Below, in pieces: positions 15,795-56,427 of a DNA stretch of 64,000 nucleotides. The notes below the pieces were generated by a model. That model was given only the letters and a program-made list of their open reading frames with translations. It was not told the DNA's origin and ran no database searches. Within the stretch, counting starts at the first letter, position 1. Each line of letters opens with the position of its first letter. Origin of the DNA: Charina bottae (taxonomy: Eukaryota > Chordata > Lepidosauria > Squamata > Charinaidae); the NCBI GenBank assembly GCA_023362775.1, contig JALMGJ010000006.1, positions 54,677,001 through 54,741,000 on the forward strand, read 5' to 3'. Both the position numbers and the translations under genes were made by a program.

Positions 15795-15904
15795 CCTCAC
15801 CTTCCACAATGGTGGCTACAGCAACAGCAGTATCAAAAGGTCTCCTATTGAGATTGCTAGTCCTGGACTGTAGTCCTCTCCCTCCACCTTCACAAGTAAC
15901 CAAA

Positions 15905-27290: not shown

Positions 27291-27305
27291 ATGCTTTATC
27301 CAATT

Positions 27306-27360
27306 TTCTTAATGGAAACGTTTCGCTCCTTATCCAAGGGGCTTCTTCAGTCTGAGCAAA
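27306..27360 (-). ncRNA. hammerhead-like motif, left arm of large PLE
   Basis: On the minus strand: CUGAAGA, one extra A, a seven-pair stem II with one C-A mismatch closed by GGAU, then GAAACGUUUC. GAA plus the self-complementary ACGU and a following U fits a hammerhead with a minimal stem III. Flanking bases can form a short, bulged stem I. The extra A after CUGAAGA departs from the textbook core, so activity is not assured. Hammerheads in PLE terminal repeats are established. Confidence 0.55.
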
Positions 27361-27447
27361 GTTGGTAAGGGAATCCTAAATATGTTCCTAGGTAGCTGTG
27401 TGACCTTACACCTGGGGCTAGATCATGGTTATATTGAGATGTAATTT

Positions 27448-28680
27448 TTAAGTCCTTTTATCATCTAATGGAGGGTCGTTAAAAACACCATGCTGTTGTT
27501 GAGCTTCTGAAATGGTCTTAATCTTCCTAGGCACAGAAGACAACACGGGGAGGAAGATGGGGGAGAGTTTGTGCCTGAGGCCCCCACCTCTATTCAAGGA
27601 AGGATTTTCCAAGTTGGCATAAATGGATTCCTTGACCCCTCTCTCAAACCACCTATCTTCTCTGTCTAAAATGTGAACATTAATGTCCTCAAATGAGTGT
27701 CCTTTTTCTTTTAGATGAAGATAAACTGCTGACTCTGGTCCTGTGGTGTTATTTCTCCTGTGTTGTGCCATCCTCCTGTACATAGGTTGTTTGGTTTCTC
27801 CAATGTAGAGTTCAGAGCACTCCTCACTGCACTGGATTGCATAAACTACATTGCTTTTCTTATGTTTTGGAGTTTGATCTTTGGGGTGTACAAGCCTCTG
27901 TCTCAGTGTGTTGGTGGGTTTGAAATATACAGGTATGTGGTGTTTGCCAAATATCCGTTTTATCTTTTCAGACACGCCAGCCATGTAGGGAATGACCAGG
28001 TTCTTTCGTTTACTCTGAGTCTCAGCCCTATCTGTCGCTGTTTTAGGTCTGGTAGATTTAGATTTGGTGAAGGCCCAATTTGGATATCCACAGGCCTTCA
28101 GGGCTGTTCTCAGGTGCTGATTTTCATTCTTTTTGGAATCCATGGAGGTGGGGATGGTTTCTGCTCTGTGTGACAATGTCCTGATGACTCCTAGTTTGTG
28201 CTGCAGTGGATGGTGGGAGTCAAACATCAGATATTGATCTGTGTGTGTGGGTTTCCTGTAGATCCCTATTTCTAGCTTGCCACCGGTCCCAATGAGGACT
28301 TCACAGTCTAGGAATGCCAGTCTGTTGTCCTTGGTGTCTTCTCTGGTGAAGCTAATGTTGGCATCTATAGTGTTTATATGGTCCGTGAAGGCCTGTACTT
28401 CCTGGGCCTTGATTTTGACCCAGGTGTCATCCACATACCTAAACCAGTGGGTGGGCACCGTTCCCTGGAATGTGTTGAGTGCTTTCTTCTCCACTTCTTC
28501 CATGTATAAATTGGCCACAATGGGTGACACAGGAGAACCCATGGCACAGCCGTGTTTTTGTCTGTAAAAGTCACCTCTGTATGTGAAATAAGTGGTGTTA
28601 AGACACAGGTCCAGAAGATGGCAGATCTGGTTTGGGTTGAGATGGCTTCTCCTTTCCAGGGTGCTGTCCTCTTCTAGTCT
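27448..28680 (-). pseudogene. Penelope RT/GIY-YIG protein, left-arm copy (partial)
   Basis: The 364 residues from the ATG at 28542 are identical to residues 59-422 of the right-arm copy, and the frame remains open upstream to the end of the arm. Visible are the RT motif MGSPVSPIVANLY, the catalytic YVDD box about 36-39 residues after that ATG, and the C-terminal GIY-YIG domain. The part coding the first RT motifs is not in this arm. Identity over more than 1 kb with no coding decay points to a recent insertion or to sequence exchange between the arms. Confidence 0.92.
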
Positions 28681-29958
28681 CTTCCTGATGTGTCCTCCCT
28701 TTTCACCAGCATCCCCACCACTAGAAGACTAGAAGAGGACAGCACCCTGGAAAGGAGAAGCCATCTCAACCCAAACCAGATCTGCCATCTTCTGGACCTG
28801 TGTCTTAACACCACTTATTTCACATACAGAGGTGACTTTTACAGACAAAAACACGGCTGTGCCATGGGTTCTCCTGTGTCACCCATTGTGGCCAATTTAT
28901 ACATGGAAGAAGTGGAGAAGAAAGCACTCAACACATTCCAGGGAACGGTGCCCACCCACTGGTTTAGGTATGTGGATGACACCTGGGTCAAAATCAAGGC
29001 CCAGGAAGTACAGGCCTTCACGGACCATATAAACACTATAGATGCCAACATTAGCTTCACCAGAGAAGACACCAAGGACAACAGACTGGCATTCCTAGAC
29101 TGTGAAGTCCTCATTGGGACCGGTGGCAAGCTAGAAATAGGGATCTACAGGAAACCCACACACACAGATCAATATCTGATGTTTGACTCCCACCATCCAC
29201 TGCAGCACAAACTAGGAGTCATCAGGACATTGTCACACAGAGCAGAAACCATCCCCACCTCCATGGATTCCAAAAAGAATGAAAATCAGCACCTGAGAAC
29301 AGCCCTGAAGGCCTGTGGATATCCAAATTGGGCCTTCACCAAATCTAAATCTACCAGACCTAAAACAGCGACAGATAGGGCTGAGACTCAGAGTAAACGA
29401 AAGAACCTGGTCATTCCCTACATGGCTGGCGTGTCTGAAAAGATAAAACGGATATTTGGCAAACACCACATACCTGTATATTTCAAACCCACCAACACAC
29501 TGAGACAGAGGCTTGTACACCCCAAAGATCAAACTCCAAAACATAAGAAAAGCAATGTAGTTTATGCAATCCAGTGCAGTGAGGAGTGCTCTGAACTCTA
29601 CATTGGAGAAACCAAACAACCTATGTACAGGAGGATGGCACAACACAGGAGAAATAACACCACAGGACCAGAGTCAGCAGTTTATCTTCATCTAAAAGAA
29701 AAAGGACACTCATTTGAGGACATTAATGTTCACATTTTAGACAGAGAAGATAGGTGGTTTGAGAGAGGGGTCAAGGAATCCATTTATGCCAACTTGGAAA
29801 ATCCTTCCTTGAATAGAGGTGGGGGCCTCAGGCACAAACTCTCCCCCATCTTCCTCCCCGTGTTGTCTTCTGTGCCTAGGAAGATTAAGACCATTTCAGA
29901 AGCTCAACAGCAGCATGGTGTTTTTAACGACCCTCCATTAGATGATAAAAGGACTTAA
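28681..29958 (+). pseudogene. Penelope RT/GIY-YIG protein, right-arm copy (5' truncated)
   Basis: An uninterrupted frame of 422 residues from the ATG at 28690, open further upstream to the arm start. Domains: RT motif DVSSLFTSIP at the very start (an Asp of the catalytic site lies just before the ATG), GSPVSPIVANLY at about 60-71, catalytic YVDD at 94-97, a basic linker (about 210-250), then the GIY-YIG endonuclease with VVYAIQC near 290, ELYIGET near 302-308 and RRMAQHRR after it. A pair of Cys in front of YIG is typical of PLE endonucleases. Family proteins are several hundred residues longer at the N-terminus, so this is a truncated gene with intact downstream coding. The start codon is a convenience, not a supported start. 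Confidence 0.93.
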
Positions 29959-30046
29959 AAATTACATCTCAATATAACCATGATCTAGCCCCAGGTGTAA
30001 GGTCACACAGCTACCTAGGAACATATTTAGGATTCCCTTACCAACT

Positions 30047-30103
30047 TTGCTCAGACTGAAGAAGCCCCTTGGATAAGGAGCGAAACGTTTCCATTAAGAA
30101 AAT
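30047..30103 (+). ncRNA. hammerhead-like motif, right arm of large PLE
   Basis: CTGAAGA at 30056-30062, an extra A, stem II GCCCCTT/AAGGAGC (one C-A mismatch) with loop GGAT, GAAA at 30082-30085 and the palindromic ACGT. Stem I (GCTCAGA with TCCATTAAG) is weaker than in the 40-kb and 48-kb copies. Confidence 0.55.
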
Positions 30104-30183
30104 AGAAATCCAGTTGACATGATTCAAGCTACAGAAAATTCCACCTGGATGACTGAGAACCTTCATAGACATGCTTTATCCAA

Positions 30184-39604: not shown

Positions 39605-40046
39605 ATGTTTATATTATTTATTGATTCATATATTGGCTGCTCATCTCACCAAAGCGACTCTGGGTGGTGAACCCAGGTTAAAAAACTGATATAACAGTTT
39701 TTTAAAAAGGTGAAAATGGGTATGTAACAGAAACAAATAAAAAATAATGGAAAATGAGGATAAACCATCAGCAACAAATTAACACCTTACAGATTCACCT
39801 AACTTCCCAACCCCCATGCTTGGGATGATGGCCAGGTTTTAAGGGCTCCCTGAAAGATTATTTCTAATCTTGGGGGCAATGGTGTTCTGAAAGGCAGGCA
39901 CAGTCACAGAGAAGCCATGCTTCTTGGGTCCTACCAGATGAAACTCTTTAATAGACAGGACCCAGAACATGCCCTTTGCCAGACTTGATTGGGTGGTTAG
40001 AGCTAATTGGAGAATCTGTAGCTTGAATCATGTCAACTGGATTTCT

Positions 40047-40104
40047 ATTTTCTCAGTGGAAACATTTCGCTCCTTATCCAAGGAGCTTCTTCAGTCTGAG
40101 CAAA
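40047..40104 (-). ncRNA. hammerhead-like motif, left arm of 40-kb PLE
   Basis: Minus strand: CUGAAGA, extra A, perfect stem II GCUCCUU/AAGGAGC with loop GGAU, then GAAA. Stem III would be AUGU, which is not self-complementary as in other copies. Stem I can form through GCUCAGA with UCCACUGAG (three-base bulge). Confidence 0.5.
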
Positions 40105-40292
40105 GTTGGTAAGGGAATCCTAAATATGTTTCTAGGTAGCTGTGTGACCTTACACCTGGGGTCATGGTTGTATTGAGATGTTATTTTAAGTCTTAAGTCT
40201 TAAGACTTAAAAATAACATCTCAATACAACCATGACCCCAGGTGTAAGGTCACACAGCTACCTAGAAACATATTTAGGATTCCCTTACCAAC

Positions 40293-40350
40293 TTTGCTCA
40301 GACTGAAGAAGTTCCTTGGATAAGGAGCGAAACGTTTCCACTGAGAAAAT
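40293..40350 (+). ncRNA. hammerhead-like motif, right arm of 40-kb PLE
   Basis: CTGAAGA, extra A, stem II GTTCCTT/AAGGAGC (one U-G pair) with loop GGAT, GAAA, palindromic ACGT and a stem I built from CTCA and TGAG plus TTT/AAA. The U-G pair keeps the stem despite a base change. Confidence 0.58.
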
Positions 40351-40463
40351 AGAAATCCAGTTGACATGATTCAAGCTACAGACAATTCCAACTGGATGAC
40401 TGAGAACCTTCATAGACTAATTGGAGAATGGCAGTCCCTCAAATATCACAGCCCCATGACATA

Positions 40464-40735
40464 TGTAGAGGGCAGAGAGTATGGCCTTGAAGGACGCTGG
40501 GAAAATCCATTTCCAAGGCAACAATCAGACAAGTGTGGCTTAAGCCCACTCCCAGAAACTAACTTAAGAAATCATCTCAGACAGGCCCCTCCCTAATTCA
40601 CACAAACAGAAAGGGAGAGAAGAGGGAAGCACACTCAGATTTGCAAGATTCTGTTACTATAGCTGTTCTAATAAAAGTAGTTGTAAACCTTGATGGTGTT
40701 GGTTTATTAGTCTGGTCTGTCCTATATGGCTAACA
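40464..40735. mobile_element. probable solo LTR inside CR1
   Basis: A 272-bp block breaks the CR1 order. It begins TGTAGAGGGC and ends GGCTAACA, as LTRs do (TG...CA), with five flanking bases ACATA on the left and CCATA on the right (four of five alike). AATAAAA at about 40669 is a possible polyadenylation signal on the plus strand. No internal coding region is present. Confidence 0.5.
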
Positions 40736-42151
40736 CCATAAGTGGCAACCAGTACCTTGAATTGCACCCAAAAGCTATTGGGACCCAGTACAGCTTGTGA
40801 AACAAAGGTATAACATTAGCATATCAAGGCATACCCATAACTTCTCATGCTGCCAATTCCTGGGCCAACTAGAGCTTCTGGGTATTCTTCAAGAGCAGCC
40901 CCATGTAGATACATTGCAGTATACTCAGGAGGTGACCAAAGCGAGTGACCATGCACAGTGTTCCCTGACCCAGGAAGGGGCCCAATTGGAGCACAACCTG
41001 AAATTGTACAAAAACCTTCCTGGCCACATCTCAAGCAGGAGCCAGGAGTCCAGGAGGACTCCCCACTTGTGCACTGGATCTGCCTGGGGTATTTCCATCC
41101 TATCCAGAAATAAAGATTAAAATCACCAGATTCAGGAGGCCTTAAAACCCATGTTCTTCCCCAACCAGACCTCCAGACACTGGGACAGCACCTCCATGGC
41201 ATTGTTTGGTTGGCAAAGGGTTGAGATGTGCAACTGAGCATCATCAGCATACTGATAATGCTTCATCCTGTGCCACTGAATTACCTCACCCAGCAGCTCC
41301 ATGTACATGTTAAATAGGAGTAGGGAGAGCACCAAGCCATGAAGCATCCTGCAAAGAAGTGAGCATGAGCTCACCCTCTCCTTCCCTATCAAAACCAACT
41401 GGAACTGATTCACAGGAAAGAGGAGAACCAGAACAAAACTGTGCCCCCAACTCCCAAGCCCTGGATCTGATCCAGCAGGATACCATTCAATACCAATGAT
41501 ATTGAAGGCTGCTGAGAGATCAATAAGAACAAAAATGGATGCACTACCCCCATCCCATTCCCAACAAAGGTCACCTGCAGGTGCAGTAAATGCCATTTCC
41601 ATCTCATGCTTGAGCTTGAAACCTGACTAAATGGGGTTGAGGTAATCTGCTTTCTCCAAGGTCCTCTGAACATGCAGGGTGATCACCTTCTCAACAAATG
41701 TCCCTAAAAAGGGAAGACTGGAGACAAGACAAAAATTGTCAAGAACAGTAGGGCCTAGCAATGGTTTCTTGAGGTGGGAAATGGATCACCACCTCTGTAA
41801 GTATTGACAGGACCATTGTTGGTCTGAAGGATACATTCAGTACAACTACAGCCCACCCACACATCACCTCCCAGAAAACCATAGCTACTCAGGATGGATA
41901 TTGGTCTAACATACAAGTGGTTGAACTGATACCCGTGAGGACCTTGTCCACTTCATCAGAACTAATGGGATCAAACCCATCCCAGATTACACTGCAAGGC
42001 TGAGCTTCAGTCAACTCTGTAGGATCCATTTCAAAGCTAGAGTCCAGCTTGGAGTAGATCTGAGTGACTGTCTGACTGTCTAATATATTCCTCACAATGG
42101 CCTTATAAATGGGTCTACAGTGTTAGTTGATTTGTATTGCTCAGACTCACT

Positions 42152-42380
42152 TGTTTATTTGTTCAGTCACATCCGACTCTTTGTGACTTCATGGACCAGC
42201 CCACACCAGAGCTTCCTGTTGGCTGTCACCACCCCCAACTCCCCCACGGTTGAGTCCGTCACCTCCAGAATATCATCCATCCATCTTGCCCTTGGCCGGC
42301 CCCTCTTCCTTTTGCCTTTCACTTTCCCTAGCATCAGCATCTTCTCCAGGGTATCCTGTCTTCTCATTATGTGGCCTCAC
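42152..42380 (-). pseudogene. Bov-B (RTE) LINE 3' end
   Basis: The minus-strand frame 42167-42367 starts MRRQDTLEKMLMLGKVKGK and contains RARWMDDILEVTDSTVGE, the Bov-B ORF2 C-terminus, with the ACAAAGAGTCGGATGTGAC end. Its left border touches GACTCACT, repeated at 42402-42409, a possible target duplication. At the truncated end lies a 13-bp perfect inverted repeat (TTCTCATTATGTG, 42361-42390), suggesting a small inversion at integration. Confidence 0.9.
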
Positions 42381-42494
42381 ATAATGAGAATTCATTATTC
42401 CGACTCACTAGAATACCATTATCCCAGGTCTTTCATTTCTAGAAGGCCTTATTTCATCCACAGAACAGGAAAAAGAGATGAACCACTTAGTATA

Positions 42495-42998
42495 TACCGT
42501 ATTTTCCGGCGTATAAGACGACTTTTTAACCCAGGAAAATCTTCTCAAAAGTCGGGGGTCGTCTTATACGCCGGGTGTCGTCTTATACGCCGGAAAATAC
42601 GGTACTCGCCGTTTAAGACCTCTCCTGGCCAAGTGCAGCCGCTCGCCGAGCGCGGGAGAAACGCGGGGAGGGGGGAGCGAGCTCCGTTCCCTCGGCGCCC
42701 GTTGAGCGTTGTGGGAGACTTTGGAGCCCGTCGTGGAGCCACTGCGTTTTGCCCCCTCCCTTCCCAAGGCTGCTCCGAGGGAACGGAGCTCACTCCCCCC
42801 TCCCTGCGTTTCTCCCGCGCTCGTCCTCCTGCTCTTCCCTGGGGGCTGCGTTCCGGCGAGCGGCTGCACTTGGCCAGGAGAGGTCTTAAACGGCGAGTAC
42901 TGTATTTTCCGGCGTATATCCCAAACTCTATATTTTAAATGGAAAAGTTGGGGGTCGTCTTATACGCCCAGTCGTCTTATACGCCGGAAAATACGGTA
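42495..42998. mobile_element. TACCGTATTTTCC-type MITE with GC-rich palindromic core
   Basis: Outer ends TACCGTATTTTCCGGCGTAT and its reverse complement (42978-42998) define the unit. A complete inner copy of the same MITE occupies about 42495-42603. The core is a long GC-rich inverted repeat: GGCCAAGTGCAGCCGCTCGC (left arm) against its reverse complement at 42854-42874, with GAGCTCCGTTCC/GGAACGGAGCTC further in. Frames on both strands (42120-42999) are translations of this palindrome. Confidence 0.85.
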
Positions 42999-44129
42999 GG
43001 TTTTCTTTGCCTCTGAATTTCTAACTTTAGCAAACAATGTGCTGTAATAAATTTTATGACAATGAAGGAATGTTAGTTGATCAGAAGCCTAATCTGGCCT
43101 TGAATCATGGTAGTGTTTCACCTGCTTTCTTCACTTGAGTCTATATACTTTCAGACATTCTCCCAATTCACTACTCCTGAGCCTCACTGTTTTAAGTGTA
43201 TAAGCAATCAGTTGACCCCAAATAAAGCCCTGTGTCACAGAATGGAAATGTTTGTCATTATGGTGCTTACTTCCTTAATTTATGTAAAGCTTTGATCCTG
43301 TGACAAATCCTAATCATGGGCAAAGAGTAATCAACACTGCTCTTTATGAGCAGCTAGAAGTACTGATCTGCTTTGCATAGGAGACAAAAGGCCCACCTCT
43401 TCTAACCAATTTGTAGTACTCACCTGAACTATTCTTACACTATATAGCAATACTTTAATTTCCTGGAAGCAGCTGTACATTTTGCCTCAATGTCTTCAGG
43501 AAAAAAAAAAGCTTATGCACCTAAGCTGTATGGGCATAAACTTCCCTTCTGCAGACTTCTACAGCAAATACATGATATGTATAGATACCAAGGAGAGCAG
43601 TGTTGGGTGGTGCAGAGGAGAGCCACCTGGATTGATTCAATATTGGGCATTCTGGGTGAATGCTCTCTCATCTGTCTTCAACCAGGCCAGGACCAGATTA
43701 AAAATGGCATTTGCTAAAATCCTCCCCAGACAGGTGGACAGAGCTAATCTAATTTTAAAAAATATGATCCTGAAAGTGCCAAATGATCCCAAGCCTCCGT
43801 AAGTTCATTTCAAAGGGAGTTGCATTTTGATGGCACTAGGCTGGAAAATGCTAGAGAAACCTTTTCCAGTGTCACACTGAATCCATGAGAATGTAGCAAA
43901 AATCCTATGTGCCAAATGGTATCTTGATTTGCTTGCTTGGAATCCCATCAGTAACGAAGCATTGTTTTTCTCCATTGCGGATTCAACTACTTATGTGAAA
44001 TTACAACAAAACAGAGTCCCAATACTGTTCAGCAAAACCTAGAGGCTAAAAAATAAAGCCACCTTTTTGGTGTTACTGTTAGTATCACCATCATTTATAT
44101 CAGAAAGCTTGCAATTCTTCTGTGACATT
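42999..44129. other. no recognised feature
   Basis: Unique-looking sequence; overlapping frames at 43482-43802 have no recognisable domain. Confidence 0.45.
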
Positions 44130-44630
44130 ACCGTGTTTAAGTCTGAGGCCATCAAGTTGTTTTTCACTCCCAGTGACCACATAGATAGATTTTCTCCATG
44201 ACAATCAGTCCCTAACCTGTGCTTTCAAGTTTCCCAATGGTGTACTCATTGCCACCGTAACTGAGTCCATCCACCTTGCTGCTGGTGGTCCTCTTCTTCT
44301 CTTTCCTTCCACCTTTCCCAGCATTAGAACCTTCTTCAAAGAGCTAGGTCTTCACATAATGTGTCCAAAGTAGGATAATTTGAGCCTGGGCATTTGTGCC
44401 TTGAGTGACAACTCTGGGTTTGATTTGTTGATGATCCATTTGTTTGTTTTCTTGGCTGTCCATGGTATTCTCAGAAGTCTTTTCCAACACCACAGTTCAA
44501 AGGCATCAAACTCTTCCTATCCTGCTTCTTTAAAGTCCAACTTTTGCTTCCATAGAGTGTCACAGGGAATACCACGGCTTGCATGATTCTGATCTTTGTA
44601 GGTATAGACACATCACGGGATTTGAAATCA
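44130..44630 (-). pseudogene. older Bov-B/RTE-like LINE piece
   Basis: On the minus strand broken frames give MQAVVFPVTLYGSKSWTLKK, WKRLLRIPWTAKKTNK and LKKVLMLGKVEGKRRRGPPA, the conserved end of RTE-type ORF2 (also present in the Bov-B copies at 12 and 42 kb), including LSLKAQMPRLKLSYFGH. It is more diverged than those copies and has stops. Confidence 0.8.
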
Positions 44631-45168
44631 AAACAAATAAAACTGAGCAACCCAAACCTTTCCAGACTTTATGAATGCCTCTTGTTTATAATATTGTTAT
44701 TAAAGTATGAAAACACCACAGTATTTGCTTTTTGCATGTTGTGGGGTTTAGTATATGTAACATATATCTGAACTGGCACACTATTTCTTTCCTTTTTTTA
44801 ATCTGTATTGAAATTTTGGAGCTAATAAAGCATTTATTTAAAATGCCAGCAAAACAACAGATCAAGTAAAATGGTTGAATTGGTGGGCATCTCAATTGAT
44901 TTGCTTCACGACAGTTGCATATCCCTGGAGCAAAAAGCTAGCATGAATGTCTCACCTGAATGCATAAAAGAATGAGCCATAAGAGAATCCGTTTCTGACA
45001 AAAATTTGTTATTAAATCATACCGTACAATGACAATGTGTCCTACAGCTTCTTTCAATTATTCTTAGGGTTGTAATGTACAGAGTGCATAAATATCCAAT
45101 TATTCACGAAGATTTGCTCATTTTAATAATACCCAAACATTAAATATTGAATAATTGGTGTCCTTAAT
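44631..45168. other. no recognised feature
   Basis: AT-rich sequence before the compound microsatellite. Confidence 0.45.
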
Positions 45169-45205
45169 GAAAACAAACAAACAAACAAACAAACAAACAA
45201 ACAAG

Positions 45206-45267
<62 letters not shown>
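45169..45267. repeat. (AAAC)n followed by (GCCT)n compound microsatellite
   Basis: About nine AAAC/CAAA units (45169-45204) switch abruptly to about 16 GCCT units (45205-45267). The antisense frame made of repeated Gly-Arg-Gln-Ala is a translation of the repeat. Confidence 0.97.
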
Positions 45268-45269
<2 letters not shown>

Positions 45270-46328
45270 CTGGAAGAATATTCTATATATAATGGCTGTT
45301 CTTCATTATAGGCAGCGATATACAGTATAATGGTAATTTCATGAGGCACAATTCACATACACATTAAAACAATTTCTCCAGTGAAATTTTGTATTGGACC
45401 TGCACACGAAGAAAGACAGTAAAAGGCAATCAGAAGTAATCTTGTCTTTGGCATCAGAACTGTCTCTGCCAATGTTCCCAATAATATATAAAAATCTACT
45501 AGTTATAATGTGTTTGTTGGCAATTTCTTTCTTTTGGGGGGGGGGCGGTGTCTCACCTTGAATGCTTTGCTAAGGTCAGCTCTTATGAGTACATTTTTAT
45601 ATCCTGACACAATAGTTAAAATTCTACCTTGAATCCCAGAGCCGCATACAAAAAGGTTCTGCATGAACAATTGTATATATGACTCTTACAAAGACATGTT
45701 TAGCTTTAGCTTCACTCACTGACACTTCTAGCAGAAATTAACAGTTGTTATAATGTATACTTCTTCCTTTTTGGCCCTCAGCTTATGATCTCCACCATTC
45801 ATTCTTCCAAGAAACAGCATTCTCTGCTTAAACTAATCTTCCCCAATCAGCTATCAAATGTATTGGCCTTAAGTTCCCAGAATTCTCAATCAGCAATAGC
45901 TATCGGTTTCTAAACATAATGACTCCAACATGACAAAATGTGCATCGTGACATTATGACATAAGCTCTGCCATTTTATATTTGTATCACAGCAAGTATGT
46001 AAGGGGCTTGGTTTGCATCACAATGTCATGCCACCTGTCTGCTCATTTGCCCCCCCCCCATTCCCCACCCTTTGCAGGTGGCTGATGCAGGCAAGAAATT
46101 CTGACAATTATAATGCAACACTATTGGAAGGCACAATGTGAGGGATCTTGGTTTAGATCATTTTCAGCTTTTGCCCATCTTGGTTTTCTGCTTTTCCTTT
46201 GTTCCACTGCTGTATGGATTCTCAAGTGAACCCTAGCCTCCTTGTCCACTCTTGCTAAACCAGTATTGAGTCTTGGATTTTTGTTTTAATTTCAGCCAAA
46301 CTGATCTTTCATCCTGTCTTCCATTAAT
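45268..46328. other. no recognised feature
   Basis: AT-rich sequence with short homopolymers (G run near 45537, C run near 46050). Confidence 0.45.
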
Positions 46329-46334
46329 TAATTA

Positions 46335-46668
46335 TTAGAGAGCCAGTTTGGTCTAGTGGTTAAAGCAACGGGCTAGAAACCAGGAGACTGAGAGTTCTAG
46401 TCCTGCCTTGGGCATGAAAGCTGGCTGGGTGACCTTGGGCCAGTCCCTGTCTCTCAGACCTAGGAAGGAGCCAATGGGAAACCAGGAGACTGAGAGTTCT
46501 AGTCCCGCCTGAGGCATGAAAGCCGGATGGGTGACCTTGGGCCAGTCACTCTCTCTCAGCCCAACTCAACTCACAGGGTTGTTGTTGTGGGGAAAATAGG
46601 AGGAGGAAGGAGTATTAGGTATGTTCCCTGCCTTGAGTTATTTATAAAAATAATAAAGGCGGAATAGA
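46335..46668 (+). repeat. Sauria-type tRNA SINE with internal tandem duplication
   Basis: The tRNA-like head (GCCAGTTTGGTCTAGTGGTT) is followed by GAAACCAGGAGACTGAGAGT, then ATGAAAGCTGGCTGGGTGAC and GACCTTGGGCCAGTC. This head segment occurs twice, starting at 46376 and at 46478 (period 102 bp). The 3' part (GGGGAAAATAGGAGGAGGAA, then TTATTTATAAAAATAATAAA) ends in (AAAT)n. The normal family has a single head. Confidence 0.88.
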
Positions 46669-46671
46669 AAA

Positions 46672-46714
<43 letters not shown>

Positions 46715-46720
46715 ATATAA
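46669..46720. repeat. (AAAT)n tail of the SINE
   Basis: About twelve AAAT units continuous with the SINE 3' end. Confidence 0.95.
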
Positions 46721-48132
46721 ATATATTGTATTATATTATTTGTCAACATTCTAACTGGCAGTGTGGAGGAATCAAGGTGCTTTTGAATTTTCATATCATC
46801 ACAGTGGCTCCCTGGTATCAAAACAGCTCATGGAGACAAGCGAACAGCCATCTAACCTACAGACTGAATTTCTTGTAACACAAGAATAATGAAATTATTG
46901 ACATTTCAGATTTAATACAGTCTCCTTTGCATTGCTTAACACTGGAATATCTGGTCTTCTCACATTTTTGGCATAGCATCTATGCATTAACAAGGTTCTG
47001 AGAAGGCTTCAAATTCAAATACTTTTTTTCTCCATTCCACCTGGAGAGATTAGGTTAAGTGGGACATTTGGGATTACTTCCTATATCTTTATATAACTCT
47101 TTCCTTCTATTGCTTGCAAGTGGATGAATTCATGTATCACACTAAGCAATATTTTACTTAAATATAGTTTCTTGAATAAGTCCCAACTGGGTGAGTTCAC
47201 ACATTATATTAAACTAAAAGTATACAAATCATATTATGGCTTATCATAATATGTGAATTCACCCATGCTGTAAATACAAGATACTTGTATCAGGCATGAA
47301 TAAAAGACTAATTCAGATACCAAAAGAGCCTATACAAATCTGCTGCTTGTATTCTATTTCCCTTTCATCCCAAATCTACTAAAGACTATTTTTCTTATAG
47401 TGTTCAATATTATCCTGGTTAAGCCAATCAGTGTCATCAAATAAAACAATATGATGCTTATTACTGAATACACACACATACTGTACGATACACACACAGA
47501 GATCCATTCTGTTAGTTGACTTTACTTTCCACAAAGACCCATAAAATTTACAACATGAGTCATTTTTTCACACTTATTTCAGTGTGATCTAAAATACAAC
47601 TAAGAGGCCTCACTATGTACTTTACCATGTAGAGTGTGTTTACTCCTTTCTATATGTACAAATGGCAGTGCTTGACAGGAATGGTTAAAAACTCAGTGTA
47701 TTTTCAGTGTGCCTGAAAGCTACAGGCAAAAGGCCACAAGACTGATTGTATTATTAGAAAAAAAATTCCAATAAACCTGGCATCTAGCTTCTTAGACAGC
47801 CATGTAAAAGCAGATGTTTGGCAGAAAGACATATGTGATCTTAAACAGTAATGGTGGGGGGGGGTCTTTCTAATGATGGTAGTTATGCTTGTATGAGGTG
47901 CTGGTGTGATTATCTGATGCATAAAGAGGCATTGAGCAGCCCAAAGTTCTTGGAGAAAATGGAAAGCTTCTGGAATAGGAAGAGCCAGAAGGCATTTGGC
48001 AGCAAATGTGAGTGCTGGCTGTGGGTGCCATGAAATAACGACAACTTAGTGGAAGCAGGAACTGAGTTATTATGAGCAAACCAAGCCAATGGTTCAACCA
48101 ATGACTAAAAAGTCCTCCTGGTAATTTACAGA
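46721..48132. other. no recognised feature
   Basis: AT-rich sequence; frames near 47704-48199 carry no recognisable domain, and the last overlaps the PLE end. Confidence 0.45.
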
Positions 48133-48214
48133 ACAATGAAGATATTTGTCTATGAAGGTTCTCAGTCATCCAGGTGGAATTGTCTGTAGCTTGAATCATG
48201 TCAACTGGATTTCT

Positions 48215-48272
48215 ATTTTCTCAGTGGAAACGTTTCGCTCCTTATCCAAGGAGCTTCTTCAGTCTGAGCAAA
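48215..48272 (-). ncRNA. hammerhead-like motif, left arm of 48-kb PLE
   Basis: Minus strand: CUGAAGA, extra A, perfect seven-pair stem II with loop GGAU, GAAA, palindromic ACGU; stem I from GCUCAGA and UCCACUGAG. Confidence 0.58.
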
Positions 48273-48583
48273 GTTAGTAAGGGAATCCTTAAATATGTTT
48301 CTAGGTGGCTGTGTGACCTTCCACCTGGGGCTAGGTCATGGTTATTTTGAGATGTTATTTCTAAGTCCCTTTATCATCTAAAGGAGGATCCTTCCTGCTT
48401 TGTCTTCTGTGCCTAGGAAGATTAAGACCATTTCTCAAGCTCAACAGCAGCATGGTAATCTTAACGATCCTCCTTTAGATGATAAAGGGACTTAGAAATA
48501 ACATCTCAAAATAACCATGACCTAGCCCCAGGTGCAAGGTCACACAGCCACCTAGAAACATATTTAAGGATTCCCTTACTAAC

Positions 48584-48641
48584 TTTGCTCAGACTGAAGA
48601 AGCTCCTTGGATAAGGAGCGAAACGTTTCCACTGAGAAAAT
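48584..48641 (+). ncRNA. hammerhead-like motif, right arm of 48-kb PLE
   Basis: Same core as the left-arm motif on the plus strand, with perfect stem II GCTCCTT/AAGGAGC and GAAACGTTTC. This is the best-preserved copy in the window. Confidence 0.6.
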
Positions 48642-48689
48642 AGAAATCCAGTTGACATGATTCAAGCTACAGACAATGAAGATATTTGT

Positions 48690-48942
48690 TTGTTTGTTTA
48701 TTTAATTAATTTTTATCCCGCCTTTATTATTTTTATAAATAACTCAAGGTGGCGAACATACCTAATACTCCTTCCTCCTCCTATTTTCCCCACAACAACA
48801 ACCCTTTGAGGTGAGTTGGGCTGAGAGAGAGTGACTGGCCCAAGGTCACCCATCCAGCTTTCATGCCTCAGGCGGGACTAGAACTCTCAGACTCCTGGTT
48901 TTTAGCCCAGCACCTTAACTGCTAGACCAAACTGGCTCTATG
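48690..48942 (-). repeat. Sauria-type tRNA SINE
   Basis: Minus-strand copy of the family at 46335, with one head: tRNA-like GAGCCAGTTTGGTCTAGCAG at the right end, GGCCAGTCACTCTC in the middle and a TTTATTTAATT tail on the left. The PLE at 48150 inserted right at the tail of this SINE. Confidence 0.9.
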
Positions 48943-50025
48943 GCTCATATTGCTATAAGGTAGCATTTGTTCTCTTAGTTTCCTCCTTTGACTTTGGATG
49001 ATAGGTAGATTCAGGTGGAGCTTTACATTCAATAGTTGAAATAGAGCTTTCCAAAACCATGCCATAAATTATGGGCTTTATCAGAAATCAGATGATTGGG
49101 CAAACTGTGGTTCAGAAACATGTGTTGATGGATGGCTTAGAAAAAACTGTTGCAGGGCAGAGAAGAGGCTATAACAGGAACAAAATAGGCCATTTAGAGA
49201 TCAACTACCATCAAAATGACATCTGCTAGAACAGAAAACCACCAAAGTAATGGAGAAGGAAATTGATAGTTTTTCTTCCTCTTGTAGTTCTATCTTCTAC
49301 TGGAGATTGGCAATCATCAATGCTCATTGATGATTTACCTCAGAAAATATAGTACAATGGTTTTCCGTGCCTTCCATTATTATCTTCAATCTCCATTATT
49401 GTATGTGCCACTGCAACTGTTCCAGACTACACATTTGTACTTAGAGTTGTAACTGACAGAGAAGTTGCCCTCTACCAGGAATATTCTTATATCCTGGCAG
49501 CATAACTTGCTGGGTCTCAACACTGTCCTTAGATATAAGTAGCATTTTTGTTCAGTTAGAAGCATTACCCAAATATTACTGCTATTGCATTCTGCTAGTG
49601 TTGCAGCTAATTGTCCACAGCTGCTTACTCAACCATGTTTATATTGTAGTTAACCATTATGTCTAATGATCATTGCATCTTCTGTGACCCAGTGTCTCCT
49701 GTTTTACCACTACAATTAACCAGTAGAATTCAATCTGCTTGCATTAGAGACAGTTCTCTCTGCTAAGAGAAGGGGAAAGTGGTAGCTCTCCCTCCAACCT
49801 GCAGCTGCCATACATCTTCAACATTTGCTCTGGGATCTTCTAGAGATATTGAGAATGTATATAAGACGAACAATTCCCATCATATTAACAGAAGCCTTTT
49901 AACTGCCCCCTATACTCTATCAAACTATTTGGAACCAATTTAAGTTTTGAGTAGATGCAGCCTCTGGTATGCATCTGGAAAACAAATATGTAATTGTATA
50001 GATAGAAATGATTTTTTTTAATCTG
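48943..50025. other. no recognised feature
   Basis: Unique-looking sequence; no gene or repeat recognised. Confidence 0.45.
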
Positions 50026-50212
50026 TTCAGTCATGTCTGATTCTCAGAGACTTCCTGAACAAGTCCCTGCAGTTTTCTTGGCAAGGTTTTTCAGAAGTGG
50101 TTTGCCATTGCCTCCTTCCTAGGGCGGAGAGAAAGTGACCGGCCCAAGATCACCCAGTCTCCCAGTTTCTAGCCTGATGCCTTAACCACTACACCAAACT
50201 GGCTGACCAAAT
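50026..50212 (-). repeat. Sauria SINE, older type
   Basis: The tRNA-like head is at the right (CAGCCAGTTTGGTGTAGTGG on the minus strand) and the characteristic body (GGCAATGGCAAACCACTTCT, minus strand, near 50095-50115) precedes a GTCTCTGAGAATCAGACATG tail related to Bov-B ends. Diverged. Confidence 0.85.
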
Positions 50213-52020
50213 ATGGATACTTTGAATCTAATATGCTACCTGAAGGCTATCTTTGCACATGCAGAACACCTTAATATGAAGATAATCCTGAATGTTTATG
50301 TCTAAGGCAGCCTCCCCTTAAGGCAATCTTACCTTAGTTGGCATTATCTGATTATTGTAATAATTGTGGTACATAATTTATTATTATGGTTTCATTGTAT
50401 TTTTATTTGTAGTACTTCATGTTTTTTTTAAGTTCTAAACCCCCAGGAGACTTTGGATGAGAAACAAGCAAGCAAACTAATAAATTTGTAACACATACAT
50501 TGTGGAATCTTTGCACTGGCTATGAATGGTCAATATCATTCTCGGTGGTGCTTAGATAGGAATATAATACTGTGTCAAGATCTAAGCATGGAATATTTAT
50601 TACTTTATTCTTGAAGCATAATACCTTTTCAGTGGTCTCACATCTTGAATCAGCCTGAATTTATTACTATATTTTCACTTCCCTTCTCTGTGTGTCTTTG
50701 TTTTCTTTTCTCATTTCAAAGCATGAATTTGCTCAGCATCAGTGGTTTTATACCTAAAGAGAAATGTTCCTAAATTTTTATTTGGATTGTCATTATTGTC
50801 AGAGTGATCTGGACAACAACACAACTGTGTTGGAAAGAATGGAGTGTAAACATTAGTCAGGATTAAGATTTACGGCTGCTATATATATGCATTGAATTAA
50901 CACTGAACAAAATTCAAAATTCTTCAAGCCCCAAACCAATACCATATTTTATTGATCCACAATGAAATGTTGTTTCCAAAAGAGAATGGATAAAGAAAAA
51001 TACCAATATCCTGTGGCACTCTGAGCAACCTTAGGAATCACATCCTGAGATCCAAATACTGATAAATGACATTTAGCAGGAAATGAAATTGGTTCATAAC
51101 ACATGTCTTTAAAAGACAATGATGACCTGTTTTCCCAAATAAAACTGAGATTACACTGAGGCACAAAAGGTCATCAGAGAATGAATTGGCTTTAGCAATG
51201 GTAATTCTGAAACAATAGACACAGCATGATATGTTTGCTGAGCTAAATATCCTTTTAAGTTTTCTGTTTGTTTTTGGTGCTCTAGCTGATCAGATTGCTG
51301 TCCATAGATCAGTTCCTTTGCAGCAGGGAGAATACTGAAATGATCTCACTATCTAGGCAGAGCAGATCACACTGGTCTCTTCTCCAGGTGGTTAACAGAT
51401 TGCCTCCCCACCCTCCAAGCTTATACCCAGGCAAAAACACTTTCATCCAAGCAAACCCGTCAACTGAGTTTCAGATTATCCAAATCATCATCAATCTATT
51501 GTGTTTTTAATTGAAAAATTCATTTTTAATTTTCTCATTATTATATTAAGTGTGTGTGTGTATATATGTGTGTCTGTGTGTGTCTGTGTGTGTGTGCATG
51601 TGTGTGTATGTATGTGTGTGTATTTATGCACATGCCCCCTGTACACACACACAAACACACACACTCCCATAGCTGCAAAGTGTAAATTAGCACTGGTAAT
51701 TTTGTCTGTTGTGAACCTAAGTTGATGTCATCTAATTATGTTGTTGATAGTCTAGATTGCATTTATAAAAGTTCACCATCAACTTGAGCTGTCAATTAAG
51801 AGATATGTTGTCCTCTGATTAAAACAAGTATCACAGCAACTCAGTTTAGGTGATGCACTGGGAATGCTTAACAAAAACAGCAATCAGATTTTTTTTTAAT
51901 TTGTTGCAAAAATTTGAATTGTGTGACATGAATCAAGGGATGAGTAGCTTTTTCTCATCATTGCCATGAATATAAGGCCTCTTTACACATAAAACTAGAT
52001 CCCCCTGCCATCTGAGTAAA
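50213..52020. other. no recognised gene; (TG)n microsatellite
   Basis: Unique-looking AT-rich sequence. A compound (TG)n/(TGTA)n tract is at 51550-51634 and a (CA)n run at 51642-51664. Small frames here have no domain. Confidence 0.5.
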
Positions 52021-52026
52021 TATCCA

Positions 52027-52054
52027 CCTTTGTTTGTTTGTTTGTTTGTTTGTT
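52027..52054. repeat. (TTTG)n microsatellite
   Basis: Seven units adjoining the CR1 end; likely its tail. Confidence 0.9.
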
Positions 52055-52640
52055 TAGATTCATTCTTATACCACCCATTCAAACAACTCTGGGTGGGGTA
52101 GAGTAAAACCTTTGAATAAATCCCATCATTACTCTTGTAAAGCACATTCAGTACCCTTTATTGAAACCTAATCAGCATAATCATTAACAGCCAAATTCCA
52201 GTTGAAAATATATTATTTTCAATGCCTTCTGGAACACCAGAATTAAAAGAGCAAAGTGCATCTCTGGGGGCAGCATGTTCCATAATGTAGGGGCAACTAC
52301 AGAAAAGTTGACTTTTGCCCATGCCCCTTTACCTCTCAGAGGGGCAGGATCTTGAGTGAAGACTCTTAAGAAGTCCCTATAGGATGAGCAGAAACTTATT
52401 GGGTAAGGCAGTTCTTGATGCAACCAATTGGCATGCTATATAACAAGCATGAATTGGGGCTAGAAACCTACTGGCAACCAGTGCAGAAATCACAATAGGT
52501 GTTTTTCTGCAAAAGTAGGTTTCCTTTACTAGGATCCTGACTGCCATGTTCTATACAATTGAAGCTTCTGAGCCATCTTCAAAGGCAACTGTATGTTGAG
52601 TGCATTACTAAAGATACAGTATATTCTCTAGTTCCACTCA
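52055..52640 (-). pseudogene. CR1-like LINE 3' end
   Basis: The minus-strand frame 52184-52423 includes KVNFSVVAPTLWNMLPPEM, the last conserved block of CR1 ORF2 (compare 9410-9460). On the left the 3' end has CCACCCATTCAAACAACTCT and a TTTG-rich tail. Upstream part to about 52640 resembles the CR1 pattern at 40.8-40.95 kb (AACTGTATGTTGAGTGCATT). Confidence 0.75.
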
Positions 52641-55328
52641 ACATGAGTAATAATAACCCACTTGTTTGTGAATAAGTTGGTGGGGGTCATATTTTGGGAA
52701 TTTTATCAATTTCCCTTGTTGGTAGCCATCCACTGACATTTGGCCTATAGACTTCACTTCTGTTTTGTGCTGCCGTTTATTTCCAAACTTTATGGAAAGC
52801 TAAGTATAAATGTAGTAAATCAGATCAGATCAGATCAGATCAAATCAACCCTCACTTACCGAGCAAATTAGGAATGGATGAGAAGGATGTAGTGTAGGAA
52901 TTCTTGCACAGCTTGGATTACAGTCTGAACTGCAAAAGGACAGCATCATGCATTTTAGGAATGAATAAATGAATAATTTCATATTCAGTTAGAGGCAAGT
53001 GTTACACATTTTTGTGCTTCATGTTCCTTACAAATCAAGAATTATGAATTTTAGTACTCTATCCATGACAAAGAAATAAGGAATGGGATATGAGTTACCA
53101 GTGAGGTTTTTTGGGATGGTGTGTTTGGTAAAGATTAAATCAATTTTGCAGAACGCTCCTGATTTCATAATATCTGAGAGACACTGTTCTGTAGAATATC
53201 AAACATTCAGCTGCTGGTGAATTATTTCTGCTTTTCACATTCTCTTTGCATAACCAATGCTAAACACATTCCCCTCTTGAGTATTATAAATTAAAAATGC
53301 TCTTTTATTGCCTTGTGACTCAGGGACCTTAGCAATTTGTTTGCACATTTAAAACTTTTTAGTAAGATTTTAATCTATTCAGGGAATAGATTTTAAATAT
53401 TGTTAGCAGTACAAAGAATTATAATATTTCTGGCCATATGCTACCTTACTTTTTAGTTTGACACACAATTCAAAGCATGCAAATTAGGCTTCCGTTTGGT
53501 AAATTTCTAAACAAATGGTGCCATATTATAAATACTACACGACAGTTTTCATACACCCTGTAGCATTCCCATACACTTAGATCAGAGAAACAAGATATGA
53601 AAAGCAGGAAGGATTGGGAGATGCATAAGTCAATTCTTTTCTCCTTCTTACTAGAAAAGTTCTGCACACTGTGATTATGTCAGATTTCATAAGGCTGGGT
53701 CAGTATTTCAAAGGACCATTACAAAGCAAAAAGGCAGTGTTTCAAGTATTTCTATGGGTGTTTCAAAGAGACGGTGTTTTTTCCCCCATACATTGTTATT
53801 GTTTTGATGCCCCAGTTTGTATACAAGGGCAAAAAATTCATTAGTCTTAGCATTTCAAAAGAACCTAATCTATGGTGTGAATTTCTTCAGACAAGTAAGA
53901 ATGTAATACAGCTTTTTATATGGGACTTAACTCCTTATTCCTAGATATAACCCACTATCAGTTTTCTATATCAGTGGTTGATTTATAAAACAGTCTCTTC
54001 TGGCTATAACACAATAATTTTCTTTTGTTTTGACCATTTAACACTTTTATATAAAAACTTTCTGAATGAAAGCTATTAGCCTTTCCACCTGTTTCCATCC
54101 ACAAGATCTTACTGGCTACCTTTATCTTCTAAATTCCATTATTTCCATACAATACACACACATGTGCACACACCTACCTATCTTTCCAGACTAAACCTGA
54201 GAAAGTTCTACCAGAAAGTAATGTAAAGTGGTCAGACAGAAGTATAAGATATTAGGTTACACTAAAAGGAAGTTTTAACAAGTAAGTATGTTATTCACAT
54301 ATAGGGCCTTTTTTAAAGAGGGGGTAGTTGTCTTGGGTCAGTATCTAGAGGAAGACTCTTTCAAAGTAAGAGTGAGCATTTGAAATGATCAGATGAATTC
54401 ATGTTTGTTACTGTTAACCTCACTGTTTCTAGTACTCACCCTCTGCCCATATCTTCTCCTTGGAGTAATACCTAATTTTGATTCCTTGCTTTGAGTTGTT
54501 CTGGATCTAATTTGTTAACTTGACCTTTATCCTATATAACATTACATTGTTGACTTCAGTGAATGTCCAAAGTGGATTAGAAAGAAAAGCTATTTTGAAC
54601 CTTGATTGCTTAGCAAATGTTTTTTTCCTACTTTCCTATTCTGTGCATTTCTGCAAAAGCCTAACAGTTATATTAGCCTGAGATGATAGATGAGACCACT
54701 CTTTAAGACATGAATATTAAATTTCTAAGACTGCCATTTTAATGTATATTATTTGTATAATATACTAAGCTTGGTTATGACCTGTTATATGTACACTACT
54801 GTATTAGTGACCCTTATATCATATTTTGTAGATATAAGAAGGTTAGTGCATTGGGGTACCAACAAAAAGCAATATATGACCCCTGTGCTTTAGGCATTTT
54901 GAACATGTAGCTGTGTAGAATTTATAGCCTTAAAACCATTAAGGCTTCTCCCAGGAATATTCCCATTCATGAAATGAAGGTAACTTTCAATTCACCACTA
55001 GTAAAAAATCAAGACTGGCAGAGCTATTTGGGATAATTTACTGGCAATCAACCCTTATTGCCTGTAACTTAAGCGTCAGAGCAAATTACTGCCTTTGCTA
55101 AAGATTTTATTTTTCTTTCACAGCCAAGAGAAGATAAAGTAAGTGGGGCAAATCAAACACCATTTATATTACTAAAATCCCAATGACCTCAGTAGAATGG
55201 CATCAAGAATAGATTTGTGCCTGGAAAATGCCAACTCTGGTGCCCACACTTCTGGCTGTATGTATGTAACTCCCCATAGTAGTGCACTTGCTAGATGTAT
55301 GTACAGAAAGGATGGCAAAGGGGAACTA
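52641..55328. other. no recognised feature
   Basis: AT-rich unique-looking sequence. A short (AGATC)n repeat of four units lies at about 52822-52841. Confidence 0.5.
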
Positions 55329-55350
55329 CACACACACACACACACACACA
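55329..55350. repeat. (CA)n microsatellite
   Basis: Eleven CA units; the frames crossing it are chance frames. Confidence 0.95.
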
Positions 55351-56211
55351 ACCTAAAAAAAGAAAGGAAATCAATAATTTTAGACATCGTTCTGTCAGAT
55401 TTCTCATATGAAATTGGAAAATTGGGTTTCTCTACAAAGCAAAAGTGTTTTGGCAAATTGCATCCTTTACAAAGCAAAGGCTTCTCATGGTGACGTGAAG
55501 TGCAGGTGCAAGATAACAACTATCACGTGTGTATTGTTTTGGCTAGATTGCATGGGAACAAGGTCTCCTGAATCCTTCCGTGGGAAGCCTGCTCCAGGGG
55601 GAGCAGAGGGAGGGAGGAAATCACGTGCTCGCTTAGATGCAGCACTGCTACCCAATAGCAGGTCATGCTATGTGCTTTAGGCCTAATGCTTTGGGCCTAG
55701 TGTGTGTCACAGCTAACATCCAGCCAATCAGAAAGCTAGAAGAACTGAATATACAACCATGCAAAATGGTGTTCTATGCTTCTTGATTTCTAGTGTCTTT
55801 TAGCCATGTAGTTCTTCATGTGTATTCTACTTTTGAGGACTGAGCAGTGCATAGCTATGGGAGGCTATGCATGGCGTGAGCTCTGGCCCTGGGATCAATA
55901 CACAGAACTCTGCTTATAAGTTTGTTTTTGTTTTTCCTTTTACAATACTGTACCATGTATATTCAACTAACATTTTTGCGATAATGTACTGTATATACAT
56001 TATTTCCTTATGCTACAAGTAAAATACTTTTAGCCCTAAACGCTGCACTCTTGTCATGTCTGTTTATTCTCAAGTCTCTTTATTTTTCATTTTTCTTGCC
56101 ATATTTGGTGTATCTTCTTTGAAATATTGTAAGGAAAACTGCTTATATGGAAAATTAGTACAATGATTTGTAATTTGCTCATCCTCTCACATGTCTCTTC
56201 TTTGGTATAGG
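55351..56211. other. unassigned; possible old LTR-like segment
   Basis: Between about 55540 and 55920 GC content rises, with AGCCAATCAG (CCAAT-type box) at about 55721 and an unusual pair of near repeats (TTTAGGCCTAATGC, TTTGGGCCTAGTGT). This would suit a decayed LTR or promoter, but no ends or target duplication were found. Confidence 0.2.
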
Positions 56212-56226
56212 TACATACACCAATAT

Positions 56227-56412
56227 GTCGATGAAGGTTCTCAGTCATCCAGGTGGAACAGTCTGTGGCTTGAATCATGTCAACTGGATTTCTATTTTCT
56301 CAGTAGAAACGTTTCACTCCTTATCCAAGGAGCTTCTTCACTCCTTGGATAAGGAGTGAAACGTTTCTACTGAGAAAATAGAAATCCAGTTGACATGATT
56401 CAAGCCACAGAC
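56227..56412 (-). mobile_element. palindromic PLE, minimal 186-bp fold-back
   Basis: Exact 15-bp target duplications (TACATACACCAATAT, 56212-56226 and 56413-56427). The two arms contain only the outer part of the PLE terminal repeat and meet inside the hammerhead-like motif; the loop is about 8 nt (CTTCTTCA). The 36-nt terminal extension is on the left (56227-56262). With no coding sequence at all, it shows how little is needed for such a copy to be inserted. Confidence 0.94.
56309..56365. ncRNA. truncated hammerhead-like motifs at the loop of the minimal PLE
   Basis: Each arm keeps stem II with loop GGAT, the GAAA strand and ACGT. The left-arm motif (minus strand) retains TGAAGA without the leading C; the right-arm motif (plus strand) lacks the whole CTGAAGA strand. 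Neither should cleave. Confidence 0.5.
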
Positions 56413-56427
56413 TACATACACCAATAT

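Follow-up and report, generated by a model that had tools for sequence, protein, structure and literature searches.

How does a retroelement come to lie in a genome as a palindrome, its two arms joined head to head? The question is raised by a 64,000-nt stretch of Charina bottae DNA (assembly GCA_023362775.1, contig JALMGJ010000006.1, positions 54,677,001 to 54,741,000 of the forward strand; below, the window). It holds four inserts of a Penelope-like element (PLE), at 27304–30170, 40016–40416, 48150–48672 and 56227–56412 (the large, 40k, 48k and 56k copies), and all four are head-to-head palindromes. From their anatomy and that of copies sampled elsewhere in the genome, we consider it likely that these elements insert by reverse transcription from both target strands, with two internal starts, and that the two complementary DNAs (cDNAs) are then joined end to end.

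Exact target duplications flank each insert; they measure 13 bp in the large and 40k copies, 17 bp in the 48k copy and 15 bp in the 56k copy. As a chance control, words of 13 or more in common were found for 5 of 4,000 random pairs of 52-bp window zones. Over their aligned stretches, the arms of the four copies differ at 1/1378, 2/173, 2/215 and 0/56 positions. The terminal repeat matches the 64 kb eight times (nhmmer), as four inverted pairs, and a tblastn search of the window with seven relatives revealed no further PLE coding pieces (one other match, E 0.37). The inner ends lie at the stop codon in the 40k copy, at the end of the coding region in the 48k copy and in stem II of a hammerhead-like motif in the 56k copy. 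The original prediction, made from the letters of the window, had described the three compact palindromes with their 13–17-bp duplications and these differing inner ends, and had counted four palindromes and no direct copy in 64 kb. All of this is borne out.

The two arms are not equivalent. In all four window copies, one arm is longer at its outer end by 35 nt, a piece that corresponds to the "tail" of the Penelope literature. The tail-bearing (T) arm, read in the sense orientation, terminates at CAT(A/C)GAC, and the tail-less (N) arm terminates at C(T/C)ACAG(A/C) in three of the four. All four window copies are therefore T/N.

The element is abundant in the assembly searched (1.804 Gb). Allowing up to one mismatch, the genome contains 32,399 matches to a 24-mer from the tail, 58,519 to a 24-mer from the terminal repeat and 12,535 to an endonuclease-coding word; reversed control words have no match genome-wide. 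A 401-bp stretch from the start of the open reading frame (ORF) gives at least 10 candidates genome-wide, search counts being lower bounds. Three samples were used. The first comprises the best 40 of 346 candidates matching the 56k copy and is biased by this query. The second, not selected for arrangement, was drawn from the first 52 perfect tail words listed for C1, of which it covers 51 (C1:3065105 was left out). The third comprises 70 perfect matches to a terminal-repeat word independent of the tail, all from C1:0–1.775 Mb, beyond which few minus-strand places are listed; its typed pairs overlap with loci L049–L110.

The one-tail rule holds throughout these samples. All 40 of the 56k-like copies, one of which is the window's own 56k copy, are T/N, as are 42 of the 43 head-to-head pairs among the 62 loci L049–L110. 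The remaining pair, L087, was scored T/T by script and proved to be an insertion nested in another PLE, in which the inner insertion is T/N and its target duplication consists of PLE sequence. In the third sample, each of the 27 typed pairs (of 29) has exactly one tail, on the left in 14 and on the right in 13. In total, 85 distinct plain palindromes are T/N, and neither a true T/T nor an N/N palindrome was seen. Thirteen later-fetched copies of a recurrent joint have one tail each (12 plain T/N and one, L136, irregular), and L124, the second copy with the 48k joint, also conforms.

How common are such palindromes? The 56k-like sample is palindromic in 40/40, a value subject to its query bias. 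In the tail sample, the script alone scored 37/51 as palindromic and 13 as single-arm, with one off the locus edge. Reading the matches changed these numbers to 39/51 and 12/51: L083, with a second arm of only 20 nt, was recounted as single-arm, and three loci were recounted as palindromic, L086 and L088 with second arms outside the reference used and L054 with its partner repeat 3.1 kb off. In the 1.775 Mb of the third sample, 29 head-to-head pairs lie within 3.5 kb and 12 matches are unpaired, and no direct or tail-to-tail pair within 3.5 kb occurs among the 70 words by their listed coordinates. One of the unpaired matches, L063, does have a partner arm, which is diverged, and several extend beyond the ends of short loci. 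Because 39 of 51 tail ends are palindromic and 29 head-to-head pairs stand against no direct pair, inverted joining is the usual outcome for these PLEs genome-wide, as the original prediction had suggested for the lineage.

A separate observation, made from coordinates only, concerns C1:19824047–19830809, where four endonuclease words (-,-,+,+) are exactly mirror-symmetric with a spacing of 2714 bp in each arm. This palindrome may contain more than one unit per arm, the template RNA being a tandem transcript.

The arms of an insert are closely related in origin and in extent. Two subfamily markers in the repeat agree from arm to arm in all 35 readable inserts of 41 examined (permutation mean 12.5, maximum 23), and each insert has a single source. 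Across 36 complete palindromes, the T and N arms have correlated inner ends (Spearman 0.73), which lie at most 25 nt apart in 23 (permutation mean 4.5, maximum 13). L083 was left out of the further counts, its N match covering only 20 nt. In 15 of the other 35, the N arm is the deeper one by 5 to 30 nt (permutation mean 2.7, maximum 11). It is deeper by at least 5 nt in 25 and the T arm is deeper in 6, the remaining 4 lying within 4 nt (p 0.0009). In the 56k-like set, where the joints of L016 and L032 were read by eye and set by hand in place of the script values, the N arm is deeper in 31/40 and the T arm in 9/40; in the later set of 13, the tail-less arm is deeper in 10.

These lengths define what can have been copied from what. 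With the joint overlap removed, the N arm still contains at least 5 nt of 5' sequence beyond the T arm in 24/35, and the T arm has a tail that the N arm lacks. Since each arm holds sequence absent from the other, neither was copied from the other in most inserts. Most inserts therefore need two RNA-templated cDNAs, which excludes snap-back copying for them. The small lead of the N arm and an N start 35 nt ahead on the RNA fit two polymerases moving in file on one RNA.

The target sites add a further element. Among 105 sequences (101 loci and the four window copies), 78 show a duplication of at least 10 bp joining the T end to the N end, with a mode of 13 bp (40/78); the sequences without one are in part single-arm copies, loci that were cut short or copies whose ends are unusual. 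Beyond the T cut we observe G (53%), then T (68%), T (63%) and (T), and beyond the N cut a weaker NTTT. The target resembles two similar half-sites spaced by about 13 bp, which would suit an enzyme dimer. The composition of the sites gives a weak hint that the cut at the T arm is the preferred one and is made first.

In the mechanism that we favor, the endonuclease would make one cut per strand, the two about 13 bp from each other and each with a tendency to fall just ahead of a short T-run. Each freed 3' end would prime cDNA synthesis on sense PLE RNA. Synthesis would begin away from the RNA 3' end, at two fixed positions within the RNA where the ORF starts: T, which gives the tail, on one strand, and N, 35 nt upstream, on the other. 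Both sites would be used exactly once per insertion, most simply if both primers engaged one RNA held by an enzyme dimer. The N polymerase would lead and the T polymerase follow, the two stopping close together, with N most often 5–30 nt ahead. The two cDNA 3' ends would then be end-joined, with a small overlap or short filler in most cases, into a head-to-head palindrome; loss of one cDNA would leave a single-arm copy. Locus L122, in which the tail continues into an open N-terminal ORF stretch, shows that here as well the N and T sites lie inside the RNA. What the sequences show is the anatomy of both ends, the target duplications, the T/N rule, the single source of each insert, the correlation of inner ends and, for most arms, that copying from one another is impossible; the dimer, the single RNA molecule, the order of the polymerases and the end-joining route are inferred.

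With less assurance, we lean towards a broader rule of paired initiation, in which both internal sites on one RNA are used once each, one per strand, by a convoy with N ahead, and the products are end-joined. The "optional tail" and the "inverted pLTR" (pseudo-long terminal repeat) would be the two fingerprints of this one reaction. Run to completion it would yield a palindrome, in its asymmetric form a long copy with a short inverted pLTR, and when only half completed a single-arm copy. In L088 (C1:2977117–2983140), a 2.6-kb insert has a long N arm with most of the ORF and a T arm of about 95 nt. The "canonical" Penelope, with its inverted pLTR, thus appears to be an asymmetric outcome of the same reaction.

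Other routes to a palindrome make different predictions for the tail and for the inner ends. Self-priming, in which one cDNA or an antisense RNA folds back and is copied into the second arm, should not confine the tail to one arm in all 85 typed plain palindromes, nor give each arm sequence that the other lacks in 24/35. The N arm, moreover, ends at a fixed site (within q1440–1460 in 33 of 36 complete palindromes), and the 48k and 56k junctions show, on reading, no complementarity for priming. Snap-back is contradicted for most copies and could survive only where the T arm contains the N arm. As an account of the family we find it very unlikely, even though junctions are often palindromic, the loop at the 40k joint is only 1 nt long and passages of PMC3846280 propose this route for head-to-head PLEs. 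Dual priming on two separate RNA molecules, with independent cDNAs, accords with the in vitro extension of both strands (PMC11167929) and with some inserts that have very unequal arms. We nevertheless judge it unlikely: independent choice of the start should yield T/T and N/N pairs, of which there are none among the 27 pairs typed regardless of tail, and the inner ends are strongly correlated, with subfamily markers agreeing in 35/35. The idea that the arms are chance neighbors, a second insertion into the first, the result of a later inversion or an assembly artefact has next to no chance of being right. Nested PLE insertions do occur (L087, L010), but both arms lie inside one target duplication and agree in their markers, and the 29 head-to-head pairs, against no direct and no tail-to-tail pair, already contradict it.

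The joints bear on a further alternative, in which the fold-back is itself a mobile, self-sustaining unit that multiplies as such. In 24 of 35 joints, the overlap or filler falls in the range −6 to +3 nt, as expected of end joining, and three pairs among the 35 palindromes have joints alike within 3 nt. One of these pairs, L063 (C1:1117789) and L069 (C1:1771568), 0.65 Mb apart, has an identical joint including a 5-nt filler, with T arms 99% alike. This joint word occurs at exactly two places genome-wide, and the two loci probably have their common joint by descent. The 48k joint word also occurs at two places genome-wide, in the window and at C206:6135997 (L124). L124 has its own target duplication and differs from the 48k copy in the pLTR subfamily markers of both arms; chance re-use of the joint is as likely as descent. 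The 56k joint is found at 12 exact places genome-wide and at 119 with one mismatch, which, among the 100 places listed, mostly represent one neighboring joint. In the 12 readable of 13 copies, this neighbor shows four marker combinations, the same in both arms, and the commonest joint of the 56k-like set likewise recurs across subfamilies. The original prediction had taken recurrence of identical inner joints as a sign that copies multiply as fold-backs. Joints do recur (L063/L069, 48k and 56k); because the recurrent short ones span several subfamilies, with markers matching in both arms, their recurrence reflects repeated origin at a hotspot, not descent. L009, L010 and L011 are fold-backs identical over 196 bp, joint included, at three sites, for which rare multiplication, one source RNA or a very recent burst from one source is possible.

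Foldback (FB) transposons and palindromic miniature inverted-repeat transposable elements (MITEs) have long inverted repeats and target duplications and multiply as units with constant ends and centre. The copies described here are unlike them. No constant centre is inherited among copies, the centres mostly differing, and the termini of the two arms are asymmetric (T/N), with the tail on one arm in all typed plain palindromes. We hold it highly improbable that the fold-back is the mobile unit. The shared joints of L063/L069, the exact match of the 48k joint at C206, the three identical copies and the frequent recurrence of some short joints speak for it; against it stand the two occurrences genome-wide of the L063 and the 48k joint words, the differing markers of L124 in both arms and the spread of short joints over several subfamilies. 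The short copies also lack a template region that the anole enzyme requires, because they end at the start sites at about nt 111–118 and the enzyme needs nt 1–172 of the ORF. The self-sustaining non-autonomous form that the original prediction envisaged is unsupported by these data; some copying of fold-backs may occur, and their multiplication as units is at most rare.

Three smaller observations concern the same copies. By eye, L010 lies inside PLE coding DNA. L025 and L037 have an identical variant in the T arm only and different joints, which is hard to explain by fold-back descent and is perhaps a recurrent change. We also considered whether the short copies are "strong-stop" products, run-offs at the RNA 5' end within the pLTR. 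The T arm does end within the pLTR in 22/35, and the idea is plausible, but the inner ends are too scattered for one start site.

Several observations weigh against two end-joined cDNAs from paired starts. Single-arm copies make up 12 of the 51 tail ends, and apparent lone N arms exist too (L114, L115), so that either some insertions proceed without dual priming or one of its products frequently goes missing. The outer end of the N arm lies elsewhere than the usual site in 3 of 36 sample palindromes, and in the large copy it lies about 32 nt inside it. The T arm is the deeper one in 6/35 and in the window's 56k copy, and such copies taken alone would fit snap-back; the 40k joint, symmetric with a 1-nt loop, is compatible with self-priming too. 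In L069, 25 nt past the L063-type joint are followed by a second junction to a short N arm, and probably some templates are fold-backs themselves, although the inner ends of this locus are readable in two ways. Inner ends in general are BLAST ends on a reference 5–10% divergent, accurate to a few nucleotides. The markers do not separate one RNA molecule from two equal RNAs of one source. Finally, the follower would have to displace the cDNA of the leader, of which we found no test for PLEs in the literature.

What kind of element undergoes this reaction? The arms of the large copy contain the second half of a PLE ORF, with reverse transcriptase (RT) and GIY-YIG endonuclease domains. PF00078 is above its cut-off in 28690–29955, with a visible catalytic YVDD, and PF01541 is above its cut-off in the same ORF. 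The closest of 120 proteins listed is an uncharacterised fish RT protein, with 74% identity over 95% of the query. The pLTR runs into the ORF start and carries the 35-nt tail, as in the Penelope/Poseidon type. The element is thus of a known kind, Penelope-like with an endonuclease. Its pLTR contains a hammerhead-like motif, with a core-like CTGAAGA..GAAAC and stems recognized by eye. The folding z-score is −2.3 for a 56-nt stretch of the 48k copy and ranges from +0.8 to −1.3 for four other stretches, and Rfam gives no hammerhead match at the gathering threshold or at E≤10. Because of this null result and the weakly non-random folding of single arms, we call the ribozyme only "hammerhead-like". 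As an observation apart, the nearest relatives of window 28690–29958 among the 120 listed are from ray-finned fish, which could reflect database bias or horizontal transfer.

In LINE-1 twin priming, the second target strand primes on the same RNA at a variable upstream place, giving an inverted piece. The PLE copies differ in that both starts are fixed, 35 nt apart, which results in a palindromic product. Two cDNAs per insertion, from two fixed sites on one template, would represent a form of integration unlike the target priming of L1 and R2 or the integration of LTR elements.

The closest biochemical parallel is the Poseidon protein of Anolis carolinensis (PAc), which in purified form cuts and extends both strands (PMC11167929). 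Its reverse transcription starts at two adjacent internal sites, about nt 111–118 of the anole ORF, with a spacing equal to the genomic tail, and nt 1–172 of the ORF must be present in its template (PMC11167929). PAc and the element described here have in common an ORF with RT and GIY-YIG domains, a pLTR with a hammerhead-like motif, a tail of 30–40 bp between two RT starts, cutting and extension of both strands and AT-rich targets (PMC11167929). Unlike the palindromes here, the PAc paper describes tandem pLTR–ORF repeats; its main text does not tie extension of both strands to inverted copies, states no one-tail rule and does not present palindromes as the main product (PMC11167929).

Rotifer PLEs are reminiscent of ours in structure, with inverted pLTRs, head-to-head palindromes and target-site duplications. 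In the passages of PMC3846280 that treat them, palindromic junctions and a tail on one inverted pLTR are reported, the 31-bp tail is "optionally present", and the structures are explained by self-priming on an antisense template. Those passages concern few copies; here each of 85 plain palindromes has a single tail-bearing arm, and most arms exclude self-copying. For Penelope of Drosophila virilis, passages of PMC1431729 report three inverted pairs in introns and many short copies, averaging 199 bp; unlike the present work, these passages hold no analysis of ends, tail or mechanism. A curation guide, in the part that concerns PLEs, counts inverted pLTRs, along with 3' extensions, among the peculiarities that individual copies show (PMC8969392).

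PLE insertion is still described as unsettled, with inverted repeats, an "optional" tail and variable structure lacking a single explanation, and the only detailed proposal that we found for inverted copies is the self-priming on antisense RNA set out in passages of PMC3846280. As far as our searches reach, the mostly palindromic state and the rule tying together tail, inversion and arm lengths are new; we found no earlier report of a strict one-tail rule, of correlated arms or of a link to two-strand priming in the literature searched, most subscription papers lying outside its reach. The roughly 32,000 tail words in one genome allow a statistical answer on PLE insertion. Paired initiation would explain a long-standing oddity of PLEs, would bear on a telomerase-related RT lineage and makes sharp predictions for the in vitro system already available from the anole. 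Extrapolation from our sample puts the number of hairpin-forming inserts that this family has left in the genome in the thousands to tens of thousands, and these may affect small RNAs and the stability of the genome.

Features of the four PLE inserts, in window coordinates (position 1 is the first nucleotide of the window)
Feature	Position	Strand	Remarks
Left target duplication, large copy	27291..27303	.	ATGCTTTATCCAA
N arm, large copy	27304..28680	-	antisense; outer end ~32 nt inside usual N site
ORF piece in N arm, large copy	27448..28542	-	end of RT + GIY-YIG endonuclease; PF01541 above cut-off, PF00078 below its cut-off
Joint region, large copy	28681..28725	.	motif A (DVSSLFTSIPTT) fused to RRLEED; ~8 codons fewer than fish homologues
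ORF piece in T arm, large copy	28690..29958	+	RT (PF00078) + GIY-YIG (PF01541), both above Pfam cut-offs
T arm, large copy	28726..30170	+	sense
Tail, large copy	30136..30170	+	stretch between N and T initiation sites
Right target duplication, large copy	30171..30183	.	
Left target duplication, 40k copy	40003..40015	.	CTAATTGGAGAAT
N arm, 40k copy	40016..40192	-	terminates at CTACAG
Joint, 40k copy	40193..40204	.	at stop codon; repeated TTAAGTC filler
T arm, 40k copy	40205..40416	+	with tail
Right target duplication, 40k copy	40417..40429	.	
Left target duplication, 48k copy	48133..48149	.	ACAATGAAGATATTTGT
T arm, 48k copy	48150..48390	-	tail at left end
N arm, 48k copy	48391..48672	+	~70 nt deeper into coding end than T arm
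Right target duplication, 48k copy	48673..48689	.	
Left target duplication, 56k copy	56212..56226	.	TACATACACCAATAT
T arm, 56k copy	56227..56340	-	with tail; inner end in hammerhead-like motif
N arm, 56k copy	56341..56412	+	terminates at CCACAGAC
Right target duplication, 56k copy	56413..56427	.	

Two other features of the window were observed. A second reverse transcriptase piece (PF00078) lies at 41132–41602 (-); it is not matched by PLE proteins, and a protein search found no relatives of it. At 15901–16552, the window contains four tandem copies of a 164-bp unit, with 79% matches.

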